20,015 nt of DNA from a virus. Positions within the stretch are counted from its first letter, which is position 1; each line of letters starts with the position of its first letter. The DNA lies in IMG/VR virus record IMGVR_UViG_3300037492_000149, positions 1-20,015 of that record. One strand, given 5' to 3'. Under the pieces are notes generated by a model. That model did no database searches. It was given only the letters and a program-made list of their open reading frames with translations, and had not been told where the DNA came from. The translations under genes and the position numbers were made by a program. This document shows, piece after piece, positions 2,674-13,667 of this stretch.

Positions 2674-2733
2674 CCCGTGCCCAATTCTGCACGCCTTGCC
2701 GAATCCGTGCATAGGCGGTATGGTGCGCCCACG

Positions 2734-3084
2734 ATGAGCATGTACAACAGTGGTCACGGTTCGACGGAGACGGCATACAAGAACGCGGCGGCGCTCGACC
2801 GGGAGGTGAGCAAGGCTTGTCTCTACTCGGATGACGTTGCGTTCCGCGTCGATCTGCACAAGGGTGAGATGGAGGGCAAGCAAGCGGTCCTCGACATCGT
2901 GGAGGTGAGCGAGGTGCTGGAGTGCCTGTTCAACCTGGAGCACCACACTGTGATGTTGCTGCGCGCCCTCGAAAAGTCCTTGGAGGCTGAAGGGAACATG
3001 TCTGAGGCTCTGAAGAGCAGCCGGTTCTCCCACGCCCTTTTGACGCTGCGCCGCCTGCTGCGGATGGATCAGCGCCTCGCTTGA
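2734..3084 (+). CDS. Hypothetical helical protein (116 aa)
   Basis: The frame is open from far upstream, but credible protein sequence begins only around the ATG at 2734 (a second ATG lies at 2740), and the repeat region upstream reads as low complexity. The ribosome site is weak (AGGCGG at 2713-2718, some 15 bases away). The protein starts MSMYNSGHGSTETAY and is followed by long amphipathic helices (KQAVLDIVEVSEVLECL, then HHTVMLLRALEKSLEAE) and a basic C-terminus (LLTLRRLLRM). It has no signal peptide or membrane segment, and I recognise no family. It stands alone between the repeat region and the promoter at 3081, whose -35 box overlaps its stop codon. A regulatory role is possible but unsupported. 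Confidence 0.65.
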   Translation: MSMYNSGHGSTETAYKNAAALDREVSKACLYSDDVAFRVDLHKGEMEGKQAVLDIVEVSEVLECLFNLEHHTVMLLRALEKSLEAEGNMSEALKSSRFSHALLTLRRLLRMDQRLA

Positions 3085-3109
3085 CACGGCGCTGCGGATT
3101 CGGTAGGAT
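3081..3109 (+). promoter_or_regulatory. Strong sigma70-type promoter for RNA cluster and late operon
   Basis: A perfect -35 box TTGACA (3081-3086) is followed by a 17-base spacer and TAGGAT (3104-3109), which matches four of six -10 positions, including the key TA and final T. The predicted start is about 3115-3118, directly upstream of the first structured RNA. The -35 overlaps the TGA stop of the preceding gene. I see no terminator between here and the terminase genes, so transcription may continue into the late operon. Confidence 0.7.
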
Positions 3110-3129
3110 CATCGGCACGGTCAGACCAA

Positions 3130-3253
3130 CCAGCAGTCACCTTCGATTCGTCTAGTGGTAGGATCAGGGCCAGTAAGCCTTCACACGGGGCACGCGTGAA
3201 GGCCGACAGCCCGAAGACGGCGGTTCGATTCCGGCCATCGAGGGTGCTGCTGG
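3130..3253 (+). tRNA. tRNA-like RNA with 31-base hairpin insertion in the anticodon loop
   Basis: Typical tRNA parts are present in order. The acceptor strand is 3141-3147. The D-arm is GTCT-AGTGGTA-GGAT (3150-3164). The T-loop TTCGATT (3224-3230) sits on a 5-base stem with one flaw (G-G mismatch or bulged G3234). The 3' acceptor strand is 3237-3243. Between the D and T arms there are 54 bases instead of about 23. AGGGC (3166-3170) can pair with GCCCG (3209-3213) except at the outermost pair, leaving a normal 5-base variable loop AAGAC. The enlarged loop then reads CAGTAA, 31 extra bases, A. The extra bases contain a perfect 8-bp hairpin (3177-3184 with 3196-3203) and sit at the classical 37/38 intron position. 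The spliced loop CAGTAAA would carry anticodon GTA (Tyr), but base 33 is A instead of the conserved T. The acceptor helix continues outward for 10 more pairs with one bulge (3130-3140 with 3244-3253), and no CCA is encoded. Alternatives are a degenerate tRNA or a tRNA mimic. Confidence 0.5.
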
Positions 3254-3278
3254 TCTTTCTTTGAAACACTTGAAGTTC

Positions 3279-3377
3279 GCACGGCATGGTGCTGCGGGAG
3301 ATCCGCAGACGGGTTGGTGTCGCCGCCCTATGGGAATGGGGCGGTGAAGGCTTTGTTCACCCCATGAAACACCGTGC
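3279..3377 (+). ncRNA. Structured RNA with branched fold between the two tRNA-like RNAs
   Basis: The closing stem pairs GCACGG-CATGG (3279-3289) with CCATG-AAACA-CCGTGC (3362-3377), 11 base pairs with a 5-base bulge. Inside are CTGCGG/CCGCAG (3292-3297 with 3303-3308), CGCCGCCC/GGGGCGGTG (3321-3328 with 3339-3346) and GGTGAA/TTCACC (3343-3348 with 3356-3361, 7-base loop). The last two share bases 3343-3346 and therefore compete. No T-loop or D-loop consensus is visible, so I do not call it a tRNA. No known RNA family was recognised. It could be a leader, an attenuator-like switch or a processing element. Confidence 0.35.
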
Positions 3378-3388
3378 AGCTTCTTTCC

Positions 3389-3481
3389 CCCGGCGTGGTG
3401 TAGTGGGCACACGTAGTCCCGACGCGGTCTTGCGACTGTCGGAGGGTAGAACGCGAGGCGGGTTCAACTCCCGGCACCGGG
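3389..3481 (+). tRNA. tRNA-like RNA with enlarged anticodon/variable region
   Basis: Acceptor strands 3389-3395 and 3475-3481 pair at six of seven positions (one C-A). The D-arm is perfect: GTGT-AGTGGGC-ACAC (3398-3412). The T-arm has loop TTCAACT (3463-3469) on a GC stem with a G-G mismatch at its base (3458/3474), much like the flaw in the tRNA-like RNA upstream. Between the D and T arms there are 45 bases, about 22 more than in an ordinary tRNA. TAGTC (3414-3418) can pair with GACTG (3434-3438), leaving a 15-base loop and a 19-base variable region; alternatively CCGAC/GTCGG (3419-3423 with 3438-3442) forms a hairpin. I cannot assign an anticodon with confidence. No CCA is encoded. It may be an intron-bearing, class II-like or degenerate tRNA. 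Confidence 0.42.
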
Positions 3482-3486
3482 TGCAT

Positions 3487-3515
3487 TTGCGTCTAGCCGT
3501 TCGGTCTGGTATGCT
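3487..3515 (+). promoter_or_regulatory. Possible extended -10 promoter just before first late gene
   Basis: TGG-TATGCT (3507-3515) has the TGn extension and four of six -10 bases. A weak TTGCGT lies 17 bases upstream. The predicted start is about 3521-3523, immediately before the ATG at 3524, so transcripts from it would be leaderless. Confidence 0.28.
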
Positions 3516-3523
3516 TCCGCCGA

Positions 3524-3745
3524 ATGAGCAACCAACAGCACGAAGTTACCGTCGCCGAGAAGGTCCTGATGCGGACGATCCAGCTTCTTGCTGGGCTGAC
3601 CGAATACCAGCTTGGGGTCTTGCTGTTCGAGACCAGCGACGAGTGCCTCCGCGACTTGGGGGACAACTGGACTGAGTCGCGGCAAGCCGAGTACATCGTC
3701 AAGGCGTGCCTTCTCCTCAAGGAGAAGCCTTGGGAGAACAACTGA
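3524..3745 (+). CDS. Hypothetical small phage protein (73 aa)
   Basis: First gene of the late operon. It starts at an ATG with no recognisable ribosome site upstream (the preceding bases are TTCCGCCGA), so either translation is inefficient or the message is leaderless. The protein is probably all helical (EVTVAEKVLMRTIQLLAGL, then YQLGVLLFETSDECLRDL, then EYIVKACLLLKEK), soluble and without a recognisable family. The fold pattern suggests a small helical adaptor or regulator, but I do not assign a function. The stop overlaps the next start by one base (TGATG), so the two genes are probably translationally coupled. Confidence 0.6.
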   Translation: MSNQQHEVTVAEKVLMRTIQLLAGLTEYQLGVLLFETSDECLRDLGDNWTESRQAEYIVKACLLLKEKPWENN

Positions 3746-3843: not shown

Positions 3844-4081
3844 GCAACGCGCAGTAGGTGGGAAGGCGAGGGAGTCACGCAGCGAGAGGGGGCAGGGTCC
3901 AGTGAAATACCCCGACTCGTTGGTGGACACGGTTCGCGGGCTGTATCAGCTAGGGGAGTTGGGATACACGAAGCTCGCGGTCATGTTCAACCTGCCGCGT
4001 TCCACCGTTCGCGACTGGATCAGTTTCCGCAGGCGGGAGAAGCAGAAGGTGAAGGGGGAGGAAGATGGTCGGGGTTCCTAA
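3830..4081 (+). CDS. Small helix-turn-helix protein upstream of terminase (83 aa)
   Basis: The ATG at 3830 lies inside the previous gene, with GGGGGATT/CGAGGA upstream. The first 25 residues are basic and probably disordered. Residues 27-66 fit a homeodomain-like helix-turn-helix: VDTVRGLYQLGELGYTKLAV, a turn at MFNLP, then the recognition helix RSTVRDWISFRRR. The C-terminus is basic (KQKVKGEED). It overlaps the terminase small subunit gene by 17 bases. Small HTH proteins here may help recognise the packaging site or regulate late genes. I cannot distinguish these roles. Confidence 0.65.
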   Translation: MKRPEQRAVGGKARESRSERGQGPVKYPDSLVDTVRGLYQLGELGYTKLAVMFNLPRSTVRDWISFRRREKQKVKGEEDGRGS

Positions 4082-4574
4082 GTATGACTGGGATGAGGTG
4101 CTGGAGGATGTCCTCGACTGGATCAGGGAGGGGAAGACGCTGACGAGCTACTGCAAGCAGGAGGGGAAGCCGTCGCGCAGCAAGACCTGGAAGGCGATCA
4201 AGGCCACGCCCGAGCGGATGGAGGCGTATGAGGAAGCGAAGGAGGAGGGTGTCGATGTGCTTGTGGAGAGCACGCTGTCGATGATCCGGTCCACGCCGCA
4301 GGTTGACCGCTTCGGCAGGATCGATGCCGGTCAGATCCAGTGGATGAAGTTGCGGCTGGAGCACTGCATGAGGCTGGCAGGCGTGTGGTCGAGTCGCTAC
4401 AGCCCGAAGAAGCAGGTAGAGCACACGGGCGGGGTGACGTTCCAGGTCATCACTGGGGTGCCAGATCCGAAGGCGGAACTGGAGTTCCAGGCAGCGAAGT
4501 TGCTGGACATCAAGATCGGGGATCCTGTGAAGGAGGAAGTGGAAGCGGATGGCGGCTCAGACACAGACAGTTGA
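4065..4574 (+). CDS. Terminase small subunit (169 aa)
   Basis: It starts at an ATG behind a strong GGGGGAGGAAG site. The N-terminus (YDWDEVLEDVLDWIREGKTL, then SYCKQEGKPSRSKTWKAI) is the helix-turn-helix region typical of phage small terminase subunits with the EGKTLTxxCxQEGKPSRS pattern. This region binds the packaging site. The middle is helical (probable oligomerisation region) and the C-terminus is acidic. The gene overlaps the large terminase gene by 26 bases, the expected neighbour. The subunit would recognise phage DNA and load the large subunit motor onto it at the procapsid. Confidence 0.88.
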   Translation: MVGVPKYDWDEVLEDVLDWIREGKTLTSYCKQEGKPSRSKTWKAIKATPERMEAYEEAKEEGVDVLVESTLSMIRSTPQVDRFGRIDAGQIQWMKLRLEHCMRLAGVWSSRYSPKKQVEHTGGVTFQVITGVPDPKAELEFQAAKLLDIKIGDPVKEEVEADGGSDTDS

Positions 4575-5883
4575 TCTAGGGTATCGTCCTCGTCAGTGGC
4601 AGTACGAGTGCCACATGAGCCGTCAGCGGTTCAACGTCTACGTGCTGCACCGTCGAGCGGGGAAGACGGTGTTGGCGAGCATGAACCTGATTCGTGCCGC
4701 GCAGATGCACACGAAGCAGCTTGGGCAGTTCGCGTATGTCGCGCCCTACTTGAAGCAGGCGAAGACCAACATGTGGTCCCTGCTGAAGCAGCGTCTCGAA
4801 CCGCTGCGGCTTGTGGGCGGCGTCGATGTGAGTGAGGGCGAGTTGCTCGTGCGCTTCGCGAACGGGTCGATCATCCGGCTGTTCGGTGCGGACAATCCAG
4901 ATGCCCTGCGTGGTATCCGCTTGTCGGGCGTCGTGATCGACGAAGTGGCGCAGGTAGAGCCACTGGTGTGGGACGAGATCATCCAGCCAGCCCTTTCGGA
5001 CGAGCTAGGGTGGTCGGACTTCATCGGGACGCCGAAGGGCATCAACCTGTTCTCGCAGTTGTATTTTCAGGCTGAGAACAAGAATGGCTGGAGCCGTCAG
5101 CTTTACACCGTGCATCAGACGCAGGCGATCGACCCCTCCGAAGTAGAGCGGCTGAAGGGCACGATGTCGGACACGGCGTGGCGTCGTGAGTATCTCTGCG
5201 ACTTCTCGGCTGCTGGCGACGATCAGTTGGTGTCGCTGACCGATGTCGAGCAGTCGGCGAAGCGTGTCTACACCGAGCGGGATGTGATGGGTGCTCCCAA
5301 GATCTTCGGCGTGGACCCTGCGCGCTTTGGCGATGACCGTTCGGTGCTGATCATGCGGAGGGGCTTGCAAGCCTTCGACCCGATTGTCTGGCGCGGTCTG
5401 GACAACATGGAGGTGGCGGCGCGTGTCGCGGCGCGCATCGAGGACGAGCGACCGGATGCGGTGTTCATCGACTCTGGTGCTGGTGCTGGCATCATCGACC
5501 GGTTGCGGCAGTTGGGCCTCGATGTGATCGAGGTGCCGTTCGGCGCGAAGGCGTTGAAGGCGGACCAGTATGTGAACCGTCGCGCGGAGATGTGGTGGGA
5601 GATGTCGCAGTGGATCCGCAACGGTGGCGCGATCCCGAATCGGATGGACCTGAAGCAGGAGTTGGCTACGCCGACCTTCTGGTATGACCCGTCAGGGCGC
5701 AGGATTCTGGAGAGTAAGGATGACATCAAGTCGAGGCTAAAGGGTGAGTCGAGTCCCGACATCGCAGATGCGCTCGCTCTCACCTTTGCTGCCCCGGTTC
5801 GCTGCCGCGATGCCTACGAGGAGTATGGCGTCAAGAAGGTGAAGGACCGCAAGTTGGACTTCAACCCATACGACCTCCTGTGA
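4549..5883 (+). CDS. terL: Terminase large subunit (444 aa)
   Basis: ATP-driven DNA packaging motor and nuclease. The N-terminal ATPase has Walker A HRRAGKT (residues 34-40) and Walker B VVIDEVAQ, with Asp131 and Glu132 as the metal and catalytic pair. The C-terminal RNase H-like nuclease has FGVDPARFGDD (Asp256), VFIDSGAGAG (Asp308) and DIADALALTFA (Asp404/Asp407), which fit the metal-binding acids. The length is normal. AGGAGG lies at 4531-4536, 12 bases before the ATG. It partners the small subunit gene upstream and the portal gene downstream, with three small genes in between. All key residues are present, so it is probably functional. Confidence 0.95.
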   Translation: MAAQTQTVDLGYRPRQWQYECHMSRQRFNVYVLHRRAGKTVLASMNLIRAAQMHTKQLGQFAYVAPYLKQAKTNMWSLLKQRLEPLRLVGGVDVSEGELLVRFANGSIIRLFGADNPDALRGIRLSGVVIDEVAQVEPLVWDEIIQPALSDELGWSDFIGTPKGINLFSQLYFQAENKNGWSRQLYTVHQTQAIDPSEVERLKGTMSDTAWRREYLCDFSAAGDDQLVSLTDVEQSAKRVYTERDVMGAPKIFGVDPARFGDDRSVLIMRRGLQAFDPIVWRGLDNMEVAARVAARIEDERPDAVFIDSGAGAGIIDRLRQLGLDVIEVPFGAKALKADQYVNRRAEMWWEMSQWIRNGGAIPNRMDLKQELATPTFWYDPSGRRILESKDDIKSRLKGESSPDIADALALTFAAPVRCRDAYEEYGVKKVKDRKLDFNPYDLL

Positions 5884-6245: not shown

Positions 6246-6695
6246 GTGATCCGACAAGCCGAAAAGTCGGACCTAGACGAACTGGTTGCCTTGGGTGGCC
6301 GGTTCTTTCGGGCTTCTCCGCACTCTGAGTTGATGGCGGTGAAGGATAGTGACATACGCGACGGCTTGAGCAACGTGCTGGAAAGCGGCGTGGTGTTCGC
6401 GGCGGAACTAGACGGCAAGCTGGTCGGGATGTGCGCAGGAGCGATGACTTCGCTTTGGTTCTCGCCTTCCGTCCAGGTCGCTACCGAGTTGGCGTGGTGG
6501 GTTGACCCAGAGCATCGAACGGGACCTAGCGGCTTGAAGTTGCTGTTGTCGTTCGAGGCGTGGGGCATCCGCAACGGTGCGAAGTTCATCTGCATGACCG
6601 ACCTGATGACGGACGGCGCGCAGGCTGACAACAAGTCGCTGTTCCAGAAGCTCGGATACCGGGCGATGGAGCGAGCGATGGTGAGGGAGGTCTGA
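6246..6695 (+). CDS. GNAT-family N-acetyltransferase (149 aa)
   Basis: GTG start at 6246 with GAAGGT upstream. The N-terminus MIRQAEKSDLDELVAL is the usual first strand and helix of a GNAT fold. The central strand GVVFAAELDGKLVGMCAGAM leads to ELAWWVDPEHRTGPSGLKLL, which fits the acetyl-CoA-binding motif A in a phage-type variant (R-T-G-P-S-G-L). The C-terminal NKSLFQKLGYRAMERAMVRE matches the late motif with Gly-Tyr. GNAT genes of this type often sit beside terminase and portal genes in podoviruses. The substrate is unknown; it could be a virion protein, a host protein or a small molecule. The stop is directly followed by the next ATG. Confidence 0.85.
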   Translation: MIRQAEKSDLDELVALGGRFFRASPHSELMAVKDSDIRDGLSNVLESGVVFAAELDGKLVGMCAGAMTSLWFSPSVQVATELAWWVDPEHRTGPSGLKLLLSFEAWGIRNGAKFICMTDLMTDGAQADNKSLFQKLGYRAMERAMVREV

Positions 6696-7022
6696 ATGGG
6701 TGGGTTCTCTTCGTGGGCATCTATTTTTGGTGGTAGTACCGTCGCACAGGTCCAGCAGTCCCGCGATCAGCGCAAGCTCCAGAAGCAGGCGTTGAACGAG
6801 CAGAAGGCACTACAGGAGAAGGCTCTCGCCGCCGCGAACAAGCAGGCTCGGCTCAACGAGGCCGAGTTGGCGAAGGCGAACCAGAAGCAGCCCGACATGC
6901 TTGAGCTACTGACCGGTGCCCAGCGCGCAGGCAACGCAGGACCATCAACGATGCTCACCGGCTCGAAGGGCTTGGACCCGCTCAAGATGAAGTTGCAACG
7001 CCCTAGCCTCTTGGGAGAGTAA
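6696..7022 (+). CDS. Conserved small virion-cluster protein with coiled coil (108 aa)
   Basis: The ATG directly follows the previous stop, with GGGAGG at 6685-6690. The N-terminus is Gly/Ser-rich. Residues 20-65 are a Gln/Lys/Ala-rich coiled coil (QQSRDQRKLQKQALNEQKAL). The C-terminal part (MLELLTGAQRAGNAGPSTML) matches, from memory, a short protein found next to the connector gene in many podoviruses. Its role is not established; it might be a minor head or ejection protein. It overlaps the connector gene by one base (TAATG). Confidence 0.7.
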   Translation: MGGFSSWASIFGGSTVAQVQQSRDQRKLQKQALNEQKALQEKALAAANKQARLNEAELAKANQKQPDMLELLTGAQRAGNAGPSTMLTGSKGLDPLKMKLQRPSLLGE

Positions 7023-8734
7023 TGGAATCACCCGCCAACGGTCAGCGTCCTCGGCGCGACAAGATCCTCACGAGGTGGTCCGCACTCAAGAGCGAGCGGG
7101 CTTCGTGGGTGTCGCACTGGCAAGAGATCTCGGACTACATCGTCCCTCGCGCCGGTCGCTTCTTCGTGCAGGACCGCAACCGTGGCGAGAAGAGGCACGG
7201 CAAGATCTACGACAGCACGGCGACGTTGGCGATGCGGATCCTCGGTGCGGGCATGATGGCTGGCGCATCGAGCCCTGCTCGTCAGTGGTTCCGGCTCTCT
7301 ACGTCCGACCCAGATGTCAACTACTACTACCCGGTCAAGGTGTGGTTGGATGACGTAACGCGGCGGATGCAGGCAGTGTTCCATCGGTCGAACACGTATC
7401 GCACGCTGCACACGATGTATGAGGACTTGGCGACGTTCGGCACTTCGGTGTCGGTCATGTTGCCAGACTACGAAGGGGTGATTCACCACTTCCCTATCCC
7501 GGTAGGCGAGTTCGCGCTCGCGAGCAACTACAAAGGCCAGATCGACACTTGCTACCGCGAGTTCGACAAGACGGTCGCCGAGTTGGTGAAGGAGTTCGGC
7601 TACGACAAATGCACGCTCAACACGCGGCAGATGTATGACCGTGGCGAACTTGATCGGTGGGTGTCCATCATCCATGCGATCGAGCCGCGTGCTGACCGCG
7701 ACCACACCAAGTCCGACAGCAAGAACATGCCGTGGCGCTCGTGTTACTTCGAGATCGGCGCGGACCCTGGTCAGTATCTGCGCGAGTCTGGCTTCAAGTA
7801 TTTCCCGGTGCTCGCGCCGCGCTGGGCGGTGAACGCTGGCGACATCTACGGCCACAGTGCTGGCATGGAAGCCTTGCCGTTCGTGAAGCAGTTGCAGCAC
7901 CAGCAGCTGCGCAAGGCGCAAGGCATCGACTACATGACTCGTCCGCCGCTCCAGGTGCCGACGAGCATGAAGAACCGGGACCTCGACACGTTGCCAGGAG
8001 GCATCTCGTTCGTCGATGGTGCGTCGGCGCAGGCTGGCATCCGCACTTCGTTCGAGACGAAGCTCGACCTCAACTACATGTTGGCGGACATTCAGGACGT
8101 TCGCGCCGGTATCCGCGCGTCGTTCTACGCCGACCTGTTCTTGATGCTGGCGAACGCGCCGGTCAACTCGCGCATGACGGCGACTGAGGTTGCGGAGCGT
8201 CACGAGGAGAAGTTGTTGATGCTCGGCCCGGTGTTGGAGCGTCTGCACAACGAACTGCTCGCGCCGCTGATCGACCTGACGTTCAACTACATGTGGGACG
8301 CCGGTCTGATCCCGCCGCCGCCTCGCGAGATCCAAGGCATGGACCTGAAGCCCGACTTCGTGTCGATGCTCGCCCAGGCGCAGAAAGCGGTGTCGGCGAA
8401 CGCGATGGACAAGTTCCTCGGTGTCCTCGGCATCATCGGGCAGTTGAAGCCAGAATCGGTAGACAAGCTCAACGCCGACGAGTTGATCGACAACTACGCC
8501 GACGTTCTCAGCATCCCGCCGCAGATCGTCATGTCGGACGAGCAGATCCAAGACCTCCGCGCCGCGCGTGCAGAAGCGCAGGCTGCGAAGGAGCAGTCGG
8601 CGGCAATGGAGCAGCAGGCTGCGTCGATCAACGACCTCGCCTCTGCGCAGACATCGCAGCCGTCCGCCCTCACCGACGCGGTGTCCATGTTCAGCGGTTA
8701 CTCGACTGCCCCGCCCCCCGCCGCAAACGCCTAA
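7022..8734 (+). CDS. Head-to-tail connecting (portal) protein (570 aa)
   Basis: The dodecameric portal forms the packaging channel and the tail attachment site. The length and sequence fit the bacteriophage head-to-tail connecting family: an N-terminal region with WQEISDYIVPRAGRF and ILGAGMMAGASSPARQWFRL, the central PVLAPRWAVNAGDIYGHSAG segment typical of this family, and TEVAERHEEKLLMLGPVLER. The C-terminal 60 residues are Ala/Gln-rich and probably the helical barrel or crown. The start overlaps the previous stop by one base, with GGGAGA upstream. It works with the terminase (packaging) and with the adaptor domain encoded at 15024-17192. Confidence 0.95.
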   Translation: MESPANGQRPRRDKILTRWSALKSERASWVSHWQEISDYIVPRAGRFFVQDRNRGEKRHGKIYDSTATLAMRILGAGMMAGASSPARQWFRLSTSDPDVNYYYPVKVWLDDVTRRMQAVFHRSNTYRTLHTMYEDLATFGTSVSVMLPDYEGVIHHFPIPVGEFALASNYKGQIDTCYREFDKTVAELVKEFGYDKCTLNTRQMYDRGELDRWVSIIHAIEPRADRDHTKSDSKNMPWRSCYFEIGADPGQYLRESGFKYFPVLAPRWAVNAGDIYGHSAGMEALPFVKQLQHQQLRKAQGIDYMTRPPLQVPTSMKNRDLDTLPGGISFVDGASAQAGIRTSFETKLDLNYMLADIQDVRAGIRASFYADLFLMLANAPVNSRMTATEVAERHEEKLLMLGPVLERLHNELLAPLIDLTFNYMWDAGLIPPPPREIQGMDLKPDFVSMLAQAQKAVSANAMDKFLGVLGIIGQLKPESVDKLNADELIDNYADVLSIPPQIVMSDEQIQDLRAARAEAQAAKEQSAAMEQQAASINDLASAQTSQPSALTDAVSMFSGYSTAPPPAANA

Positions 8735-12620: not shown

Positions 12621-13667
12621 ATGGCAACTCTTTCTGCTACCAACCTCACGCTCGCCGATTGGGCGAAGCGTGTCGATCCGAATGGCAGCGTTCCAGTCGT
12701 TGCGGAATTGCTTTCGCAAACGAACGAGATCCTCACCGACTGCGTGTTCAAGGAAGGCAATCTGCCGACCGGCGACCGTGTCGTGATCCGCACTGGCCTG
12801 CCGACCGTCTACTGGCGCGCGCTGAACCAAGGCATCCCGTCGAGCAAGAGCACGACTGCTCAGGTCGATGAGGCTTGCGGCATCCTCGAAGCTCGTTCGG
12901 AGATCGACAAGGATCTCGCGATGCTGAACGGCAACACGGCTCAGTTCCGGCTCTCGGAGGACACCGCGTTCCTCGAAAGCATGAACCAGACGATGGCGAG
13001 CACGCTGTTCTACGGCAACCCCGCCTCGGACCCGAAGCAGCCGCTCGGCTTGGCTCCTCGCTACTCGGCTACGTCGGCTGGCAACGGTCAGAACATCGTC
13101 CTCGGCGGCGGCTCTGGCTCCGACAACACGAGCATTTGGCTCGTCGTGTGGGGCGACCAGACGATCTACTGCCCGTTCCCGAAGGGCAGCAAGGCTGGCC
13201 TGATCCATGAGGATCTCGGCGAGCAAACGGTCTACACGCCTTCTGGCCTTGGCTTGACCACGGCTTCGGCGACCGACCGTATGCAGGCTCTCGTGACGCG
13301 CTACCAGTGGAAGACTGGTCTCGTGGTCAAGGACTGGCGATATGCGGTTCGCATCCCGAACATCGATGTCAGCGAGGCTGCGGCGCTCGCGAGTTCGCAG
13401 CTGCCGACTGCCTACACCACGATGCTGCACACGATGGCGAAGGCTGTCTGCCGCGTCCCGAATCTGCGCATGGGTCGCCCGGTGTTCTACATGAACCGCA
13501 CGGTCTACTCGGCGCTCATGCGTCTCGCTCTGGAGAAGTCGGCGGCGACCCTCTCGATCCAGACGGCTCTGAGCCAGTTCGGCACCCCCATCTCGTGGGG
13601 CACGTTCATGGGCATCCCGCTGCGTTGCGTGGACAGCCTGCTCAACACCGAAGCCCTCATCTCCTGA
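12621..13667 (+). CDS. Major capsid protein, epsilon15/BPP-1 (GP7) type (348 aa)
   Basis: Forms the icosahedral shell (HK97 fold). The N-terminus MATLSATNLTLADWAKRVDP and the next segment (VVAELLSQTNEILTDCVFKE, then GNLPTGDRVVIRTGLPTVYW) match the capsid family of epsilon15 gp7 and Bordetella phage BPP-1, and the length is normal for it. The central MNQTMASTLFYGNPASDPKQ and the C-terminal TFMGIPLRCVDSLLNTEA are also characteristic. The gene uses a narrow set of GC-ending codons, fitting high expression. The ribosome site before the ATG at 12621 is weak. It is flanked by the scaffold and cement protein genes. Confidence 0.93.
   Translation: MATLSATNLTLADWAKRVDPNGSVPVVAELLSQTNEILTDCVFKEGNLPTGDRVVIRTGLPTVYWRALNQGIPSSKSTTAQVDEACGILEARSEIDKDLAMLNGNTAQFRLSEDTAFLESMNQTMASTLFYGNPASDPKQPLGLAPRYSATSAGNGQNIVLGGGSGSDNTSIWLVVWGDQTIYCPFPKGSKAGLIHEDLGEQTVYTPSGLGLTTASATDRMQALVTRYQWKTGLVVKDWRYAVRIPNIDVSEAAALASSQLPTAYTTMLHTMAKAVCRVPNLRMGRPVFYMNRTVYSALMRLALEKSAATLSIQTALSQFGTPISWGTFMGIPLRCVDSLLNTEALIS

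Follow-up and report, generated by a model that had tools for sequence, protein, structure and literature searches.

The locus described here raises the question of whether a phage tRNA-like sequence that carries a perfect hairpin in its anticodon region is a tRNA gene with a small intron or an RNA that does not decode. To our knowledge, small structured inserts are unexpected in the tRNA genes of bacterial viruses, where the known tRNA introns are group I ribozymes. Gene content and similarity searches identify the window (the whole stretch of 20,015 nt that was analysed) as a fragment of a BPP-1-like podophage, whose host is therefore probably bacterial. The large terminase shares 61-63% identity with those of Manatee Spring podophages, and its connector is 64% identical to that of Limnohabitans phage DC33 and 57% to that of Bordetella phage BPP-1. 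The DC33 record (PQ492659.1, L045; 39 kb) has a tailed-phage connector gene and a taxonomy line that says Inoviridae, a filing that looks wrong. Between a gene ending at 3084 and a gene starting at 3524, near the packaging genes, lies a non-coding cassette made up, in this order, of a putative promoter, a tRNA-like element (w1), a structured RNA and another tRNA-like element (w2) (Table 1). The original prediction concerned w1 and had missed both w2 and the structured RNA.

Table 1. Features of the window and, in the last row, loci of the GC-rich family in other records
Feature	Position	Strand	Basis or remark
Putative sigma-70-type promoter, TTGACA-17-TAGGAT	3081-3109	+	upstream of RNA cassette; consensus match only
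w1, whole tRNA-like element including extended acceptor helix	3129-3254	+	fold z = -5.45; covariance-model matches
5' acceptor extension, ACCAGCAG-U-CAC	3129-3140	+	pairs with 3244-3254; fold
Acceptor stem, 5' strand, CTTCGAT	3141-3147	+	7 pairs with 3237-3243, one G-U
D arm, GTCTAGTGGTAGGAT, Glu/Asp-type	3150-3164	+	sequence
Anticodon-stem position, 5' strand, AGGGC	3166-3170	+	4 of 5 pairs with 3209-3213, GCCCG
Hairpin, 5' arm, GCCTTCAC	3177-3184	+	perfect 8 bp with 3196-3203
Hairpin, 3' arm, GTGAAGGC	3196-3203	+	perfect 8 bp with 3177-3184
ACAGC after hairpin, at place of family-i CNGCA motif	3206-3210	+	R2 alignment
T arm, GGCGG-TTCGATT-CCGGCC	3219-3236	+	sequence; mismatch or bulge
Acceptor stem, 3' strand, ATCGAGG	3237-3243	+	pairs with 3141-3147
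3' acceptor extension, GTGCTGCTGGT	3244-3254	+	pairs with 3129-3140; fold
Structured RNA between w1 and w2, not tRNA-like	3272-3383	+	z = -4.32
w2, tRNA-like element	3389-3481	+	R1 and R2 matches; ARAGORN with introns = Lys(CTT)
w2 acceptor strands	3389-3395/3475-3481		1 mismatch
w2 D arm	3398-3412		
w2 T arm	3458-3474		
Small and large terminase	4065-5883		
GNAT acetyltransferase	6246-6695		
Portal/head-tail connector	7022-8734		
Major head protein	12621-13667		
GC-rich family loci	L281 (Arthrobacter phage EvePickles) 2988-3096; L265, L070, L270-L279		

The acceptor strands, a D loop with GG and a T loop of the TTCRANY type follow one another in w1 in the order of a tRNA, as originally predicted, and the 54 nt between the D and T arms and the perfect 8-bp hairpin with its 11-nt loop are also confirmed. 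The D arm is almost identical to that of element B of Aeromonas phage Aeh1, and the T stem forms four of five pairs, or five with a bulged G, around the loop TTCGATT. The fold of the whole element reaches -64.0 kcal/mol, compared with -43.6 +/- 3.7 kcal/mol for shuffles. In this minimum-energy fold both the hairpin and the acceptor extension are retained and the D and T regions are paired differently, which is common in computed folds of unmodified tRNA sequences. The acceptor helix does extend well beyond the normal length, by 11 pairs arranged as three pairs, a bulged U (3137) and eight further pairs that reach 3129/3254. CCA is not encoded; positions 3244-3246 are GTG and are paired.

The 54-nt spacer consists of C, AGGGC, CAGTAA, the hairpin, CGACA, GCCCG and AAGAC. 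A perfect 8-bp hairpin is found in 0.5% of shuffled spacers, and together with a stem of at least four pairs at the anticodon position in 0.035%. The proposed anticodon stem AGGGC/GCCCG stood in part, since four of its pairs form and an A-G mismatch occupies 27/43. It meets the hairpin through small internal loops (GGGC-CA-GU-AA-hairpin-CG-AC-A-GCCC), so that placing the excess exactly between positions 37 and 38 is arbitrary and the arm can be read, from its repeats and stems, as one long imperfect hairpin. This arm is spanned by an inverted repeat of 20 nt (3168-3187/3193-3212) with 15 of 20 positions paired (75% complementary).

The anticodon arm was taken as canonical when removal of one contiguous segment left five positions paired, 7 nt in the loop with U at 33 and R at 37, and 4-6 nt in the variable loop. 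No single-segment removal gives such an arm in w1 or w2, and ARAGORN recognises no tRNA in w1 after any of 1,235 single deletions. The loop CAGTAAA, which the 37/38 reading requires, has A at position 33 and closes on the mismatched stem. Taken together, these results bring down the claim of a minimal intron at 37/38. A bulge-helix-bulge of the 3-4-3 type was also sought in the w1 fold and is absent, small internal loops being present instead. The ARAGORN check suggested at the outset detected no tRNA in the window, nor in 33 loci, when introns were disallowed; with introns allowed it called only w2 in the window, and relaxed-score runs produced many meaningless calls. Rfam gave no match to the window at gathering score, RF00005 being absent at w1 and w2, and below gathering a tRNA-Sec match of 14.7 bits fell on w2. 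A group I intron in w1 likewise failed, the excess being 31 nt without any Rfam match, whereas a group I ribozyme core takes about 200 nt or more.

The architecture of w1 recurs in other phages. A spacing pattern composed of the D arm of w1, 40-70 nt and a T arm matched, over viral contigs, two near-identical copies of the element, Aeromonas phages Aeh1, PX29 and phiAS5 with three tandem long-spacer tRNA-like genes each, and three chance or tandem-tRNA hits. Similarity searches reached Vibrio phages QD01, KVP40, nt-1 and others, as well as Synechococcus phage BUCT-ZZ01, Aeromonas phage Ahp1, Xanthomonas phage XbC2 and a 735-kb uncultured phage. Many phages carry such inserts, and short inserts in tRNA genes can no longer be regarded as peculiar to archaea and eukaryotes. 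Further pattern scans yielded 151 distinct spacers of 45-100 nt, and 66 of these tRNA-likes become canonical after removal of one insert, compared with a mean of 1.5 and a maximum of 3 in the shuffled control. The insert follows nt 28 or 29 in about 46 of the 66, and the anticodons obtained include Asn, Lys, Glu, Gln, Pro, Arg, Ile, Met, Ser, Cys, Gly, Thr, Asp and Leu; as a consistency check, the Glu-type D arms of L075 and L080 go with the anticodon UUC. Selected genes were ARAGORN tRNAs in 34 cases out of 34 after insert removal and in none before. Since deletions shifted by 3-7 nt also pass in 171 of 204 cases, ARAGORN is permissive here and the insert borders are not fixed by it.

In 30 aligned genes, compensatory changes affect 20 of 22 consensus pairs, every one of the six in the insert hairpin among them, and the motif C-N-G-C-A that follows this hairpin is invariant. 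We call this group family i (34 genes; L051 2549-2791, L052 5053-5164, L060 2630-2750, L075, L101, L133 and others). Its 38-57-nt insert, with hairpin and CNGCA, lies after nt 28 or 29 and leaves canonical tRNAs of many isotypes when removed; it is possibly an undescribed small tRNA intron. The Rfam tRNA model gives 37-51 bits on insert-bearing phage genes, and Rfam has no family for the insert. An acceptor with at least seven extra pairs occurs in 13 of 186 long-insert tRNA-likes and in 1 of 589 normal-spacing tRNAs, counts in which related phages are not independent, and Aeh1, KVP40 and QD01 share an order with the long-acceptor tRNA-likes first. Element A of Aeh1 (L035 9177-9292) and its PX29 and phiAS5 equivalents contain an additional T arm (ACGGTTCGATTCCGT) inside their 67-69-nt spacer and are nested or duplicated tRNA-likes. 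A 27-nt family-i pattern found no match in viral contigs. Most of what the spacing-pattern scan of genome contigs returned was tRNA genes of archaea and artefacts of tandem duplication among bacterial tRNAs. Two Myxococcota MAG contigs (L224 7872-7963, L229 5087-5178) each have a tRNA-like gene with an insert resembling that of family i; the class may therefore also exist in bacteria or in prophages of theirs.

A GC-rich family was traced from the motif AGUA, which it has in common with w1. Its 13 elements come from Arthrobacter phage EvePickles and 12 viral contigs, and their extended anticodon arm contains AGUAGGGAUCGAGNCCC, which is a T-loop-like hairpin, then a hairpin and GCAAGUGGCCAC. 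Compensatory changes are found in 15 of 28 pairs, among others in the acceptor, the D stem, the anticodon stem and two pairs beyond it. No U33 loop was seen in these elements, which therefore seem to be conserved non-decoding tRNA-likes. L065, L083 and L076, which were picked out solely by their D arm and spacing, have hairpin-extended anticodon arms too, with unrelated inserts. A recurrent spacer of about 50 nt (AGGAACCUCUUCACGGUGAAGGACCAAAUGCCAGAGGGUAAACCAAGCC) accompanies GCTCAGTTGGTAGAGC D arms in L106, L127, L134, L136, L140, L151 and L157, and its removal yields no canonical tRNA. A third insert type, AGGAACCUCUUCACGGUGAAGGACC, which w1 resembles (CTTCAC..GTGAAGG), was discarded, the hairpin being unconserved there.

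Covariance models were built from the GC-rich family (R1) and from full-length family i (R2), and a further model from the family-i insert alone (R3). Over the whole window, the best match of R1 without filters is w1 (18.3 bits, E 0.021), followed by w2 (17.1 bits, E 0.035), and R2 gives the same order (21.4 bits, E 0.00076, and 14.0 bits, E 0.054), the E-values of both being roughly calibrated and the two models sharing the tRNA body. As two models that were built separately both put w1 at the top and w2 next among all matches in the 20 kb, the two elements descend from tRNAs. In the R2 alignment the family hairpin is matched by that of w1 and the invariant motif by ACAGC, and 25 model positions are missing where the anticodon loop should be. 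R3 gives no match in the window at E up to 10; the evidence is therefore for tRNA descent and architecture and not for a particular insert family, and the correspondence of ACAGC to CNGCA may be due to chance. Membership of w1 in family i was rejected on this ground; insert removal also fails to restore a canonical tRNA. The R1 alignment of w1 pairs GU with AC beyond the anticodon stem, as in the extended arm of the GC-rich family, and the invariant AGUAGGGAUCGAGNCCC core with AGUAGGG is absent, AGUA alone being shared (3172-3175). The insert of w1 itself fits neither family.

Concerning the rest of the cassette, the promoter agrees with the consensus at 10 of 12 positions, with 0.1 such matches expected in shuffles. 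In w2, 45 nt separate the D and T arms, the T stem is also defective and the fold is no better than shuffles (z = +1.1). The middle RNA is closed by GCACGG/CCGTGC and contains 6-bp and 12-bp hairpins; a homologue was sought and none found. The w1 insert region 3203-3222 is complementary to the w2 anticodon region 3423-3442 at 16 of 20 positions, and the hairpin arm 3175-3184 is a perfect 10-nt complement of 3344-3353 in the middle RNA, which may reflect pairing between the three RNAs or chance.

The only near-identical copies of w1 are in L002 and L003, where the 5' flank differs and the element is unchanged apart from the outermost acceptor-extension pair, which becomes G-U. Being invariant across the element, these copies provide no covariation. 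Directly 5' of the w1 equivalent, where the window differs, both carry a GGCACGG/CCGTGCC hairpin that could compete with the outer acceptor extension. A search of phage-record DNA with 2700-3600 as query found no relevant match. Neither ARAGORN nor R1 detected a tRNA-like element in the terminase relatives L004-L034 or the known relatives L043-L046, so that no covariation can be obtained for w1 itself. In about 0.3 Mb of terminase relatives, model matches were confined to the two near-identical contigs, the cassette being absent from relatives at about 60% identity.

Since w1 has no usable anticodon, we tentatively favour, as the likeliest explanation, that w1 and w2 are tRNA-derived cassette genes and that w1 is a non-decoding tRNA mimic, which probably acts on a host factor that binds tRNA, as its decoy or regulator. 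Both would group broadly with the phage tRNA-likes that have an anticodon-arm insert and often a lengthened acceptor helix. The cassette would be transcribed from the putative promoter, and w1 would adopt an L fold that keeps the elbow of D and T loops read by tRNA-handling proteins. With the anticodon arm drawn out and the usable anticodon gone, it would show a double-stranded rod in place of the anticodon loop, and the sealed acceptor end would prevent charging. Such a molecule could act against, for example, an anticodon nuclease or another tRNA-targeting defence, a proposal based on the reported evasion of such defences by phage tRNAs (PMC10264068, PMC11555353). The alternative offered in the original prediction, a mimic or non-standard molecule with an extended acceptor, fits better than its intron. 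It is favoured by the extended anticodon arms of the GC-rich family, L065, L083 and L076, and by the recurrence of acceptor extensions together with inserts. Against the mimic we count that w1 homologues with sequence variation were not found, hence no sign of selection on the hairpin, that R3 has no match and the AGUAGGG core is lacking, that the T-stem defects of both elements and the poor w2 fold fit decay, and that relatives lack the cassette.

The main and serious rival, which we consider unlikely on balance, is that w1 is an insert-bearing phage tRNA in decay, now a pseudogene, from which about 25 nt were lost, and with them the loop and the 3' strand of the anticodon arm. The R2 alignment, with its matched hairpin and motif followed by 25 omitted positions, is what such a loss would leave, and the T-stem mismatches of w1 and w2, the w2 acceptor mismatch, the w2 fold and the relatives without the cassette point the same way. 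However, the perfect hairpin, 18 acceptor and extension pairs and a GGGC/GCCC stem would not be expected under neutral decay (hairpin and stem together in 0.035% of shuffles, as above), a good promoter match is present, and w1 is unchanged in two other contigs despite their altered 5' flank. That w1 and w2 are instead precursors of working tRNAs, the insert being spliced out by a route of a new kind at other exon borders, perhaps along with further changes, for example editing, appears improbable. The 66 long-spacer genes restored elsewhere, the 34 accepted by ARAGORN only after removal, and the shared, covarying hairpin with its CNGCA lend weight to splicing in general, but neither element has a canonical decomposition, no single w1 deletion satisfies a program that is itself permissive, CCA is not encoded and R3 is silent in the window.

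A chance likeness of an unrelated hairpin-rich RNA to tRNA would account for the low scores (14-21 bits) and for the missing Rfam tRNA match; it is very improbable in view of two adjacent genes whose D and T arms agree with tRNA in order, spacing and identity and which are also the top two window matches of two models. We give scarcely any credence to an archaeal or eukaryotic-type short intron at 37/38 of a tRNA-Tyr (GTA): the hairpin does sit in the anticodon region and archaeal tRNA genes are among the matches to the same spacing pattern, but A33, the A-G mismatch and the missing bulge-helix-bulge oppose it, as does a BPP-1-like phage with a probably bacterial host. An attP remnant was considered and judged unlikely, as both tRNA ends and the D arm are present where the 3' tRNA end alone would be expected.

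A wider proposal, somewhat doubtful at present, is that of an undescribed class of phage tRNA genes with structured anticodon-arm inserts of 31-57 nt, spread over T4-like, jumbo, cyanophage, podophage and actinophage genomes. One branch would comprise true small introns at a fixed anticodon-stem site in some 15 isotypes, spliced by a bacterial or phage route of a new kind; the other, including w1, would comprise mimics that have given up the anticodon and act against tRNA-reading host factors. Most of the insert-bearing phage cases are unannotated or labelled as pseudogenes. If the inserts are introns, a tRNA-splicing route new to bacteria or phages exists; if they stay in the RNA, whole families of tRNA mimics are made by phages. 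The open-access literature searched for phage tRNA introns and pseudo-tRNAs contains no description of these inserts.

Among known systems, archaeal and eukaryotic tRNA introns are, like the w1 insert, short and located in the anticodon arm, but their removal leaves a canonical anticodon loop and the archaeal ones are cut at a bulge-helix-bulge, whereas w1 yields no canonical loop and has no such motif. Bacterial group I introns are also inserted in the anticodon arm, and the 31-nt excess of w1 is far too small for a ribozyme. The stable RNAs C and D of T4 (species 1 and 2) are likewise encoded beside phage tRNAs, and RNA C has a T arm; their folds differ, and R2 gives no match to rnaC or rnaD in L047. 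The GC-rich family has in common with w1 the tRNA body, the extended anticodon arm (one mismatch, two extra pairs) and the lack of U33, but its AGUAGGG core and second hairpin are missing from w1, in spite of the R1 match. In T4-like phages, the three Aeh1 elements and tRNA-Pseudo-3, -4 and -5 of KVP40, the latter annotated as tRNA-OTHER or pseudo, are tRNA-like with a long spacer (60-73 nt) and a hairpin insert, as is w1, and several of them also have a lengthened acceptor helix; their inserts are AT-rich with CNGCA and many become canonical on removal, unlike w1. Nolan et al. (2006), in whose newly sequenced genomes group I introns were looked for and not found (PMC1524935), report three 'Pseudo' tRNAs of Aeh1, which we take to be these three elements. 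Finally, the defence-evading phage tRNAs (PMC10264068, PMC11555353) still decode, whereas w1 is without an anticodon loop; the purpose possibly common to both would be interference with tRNA-targeting nucleases.
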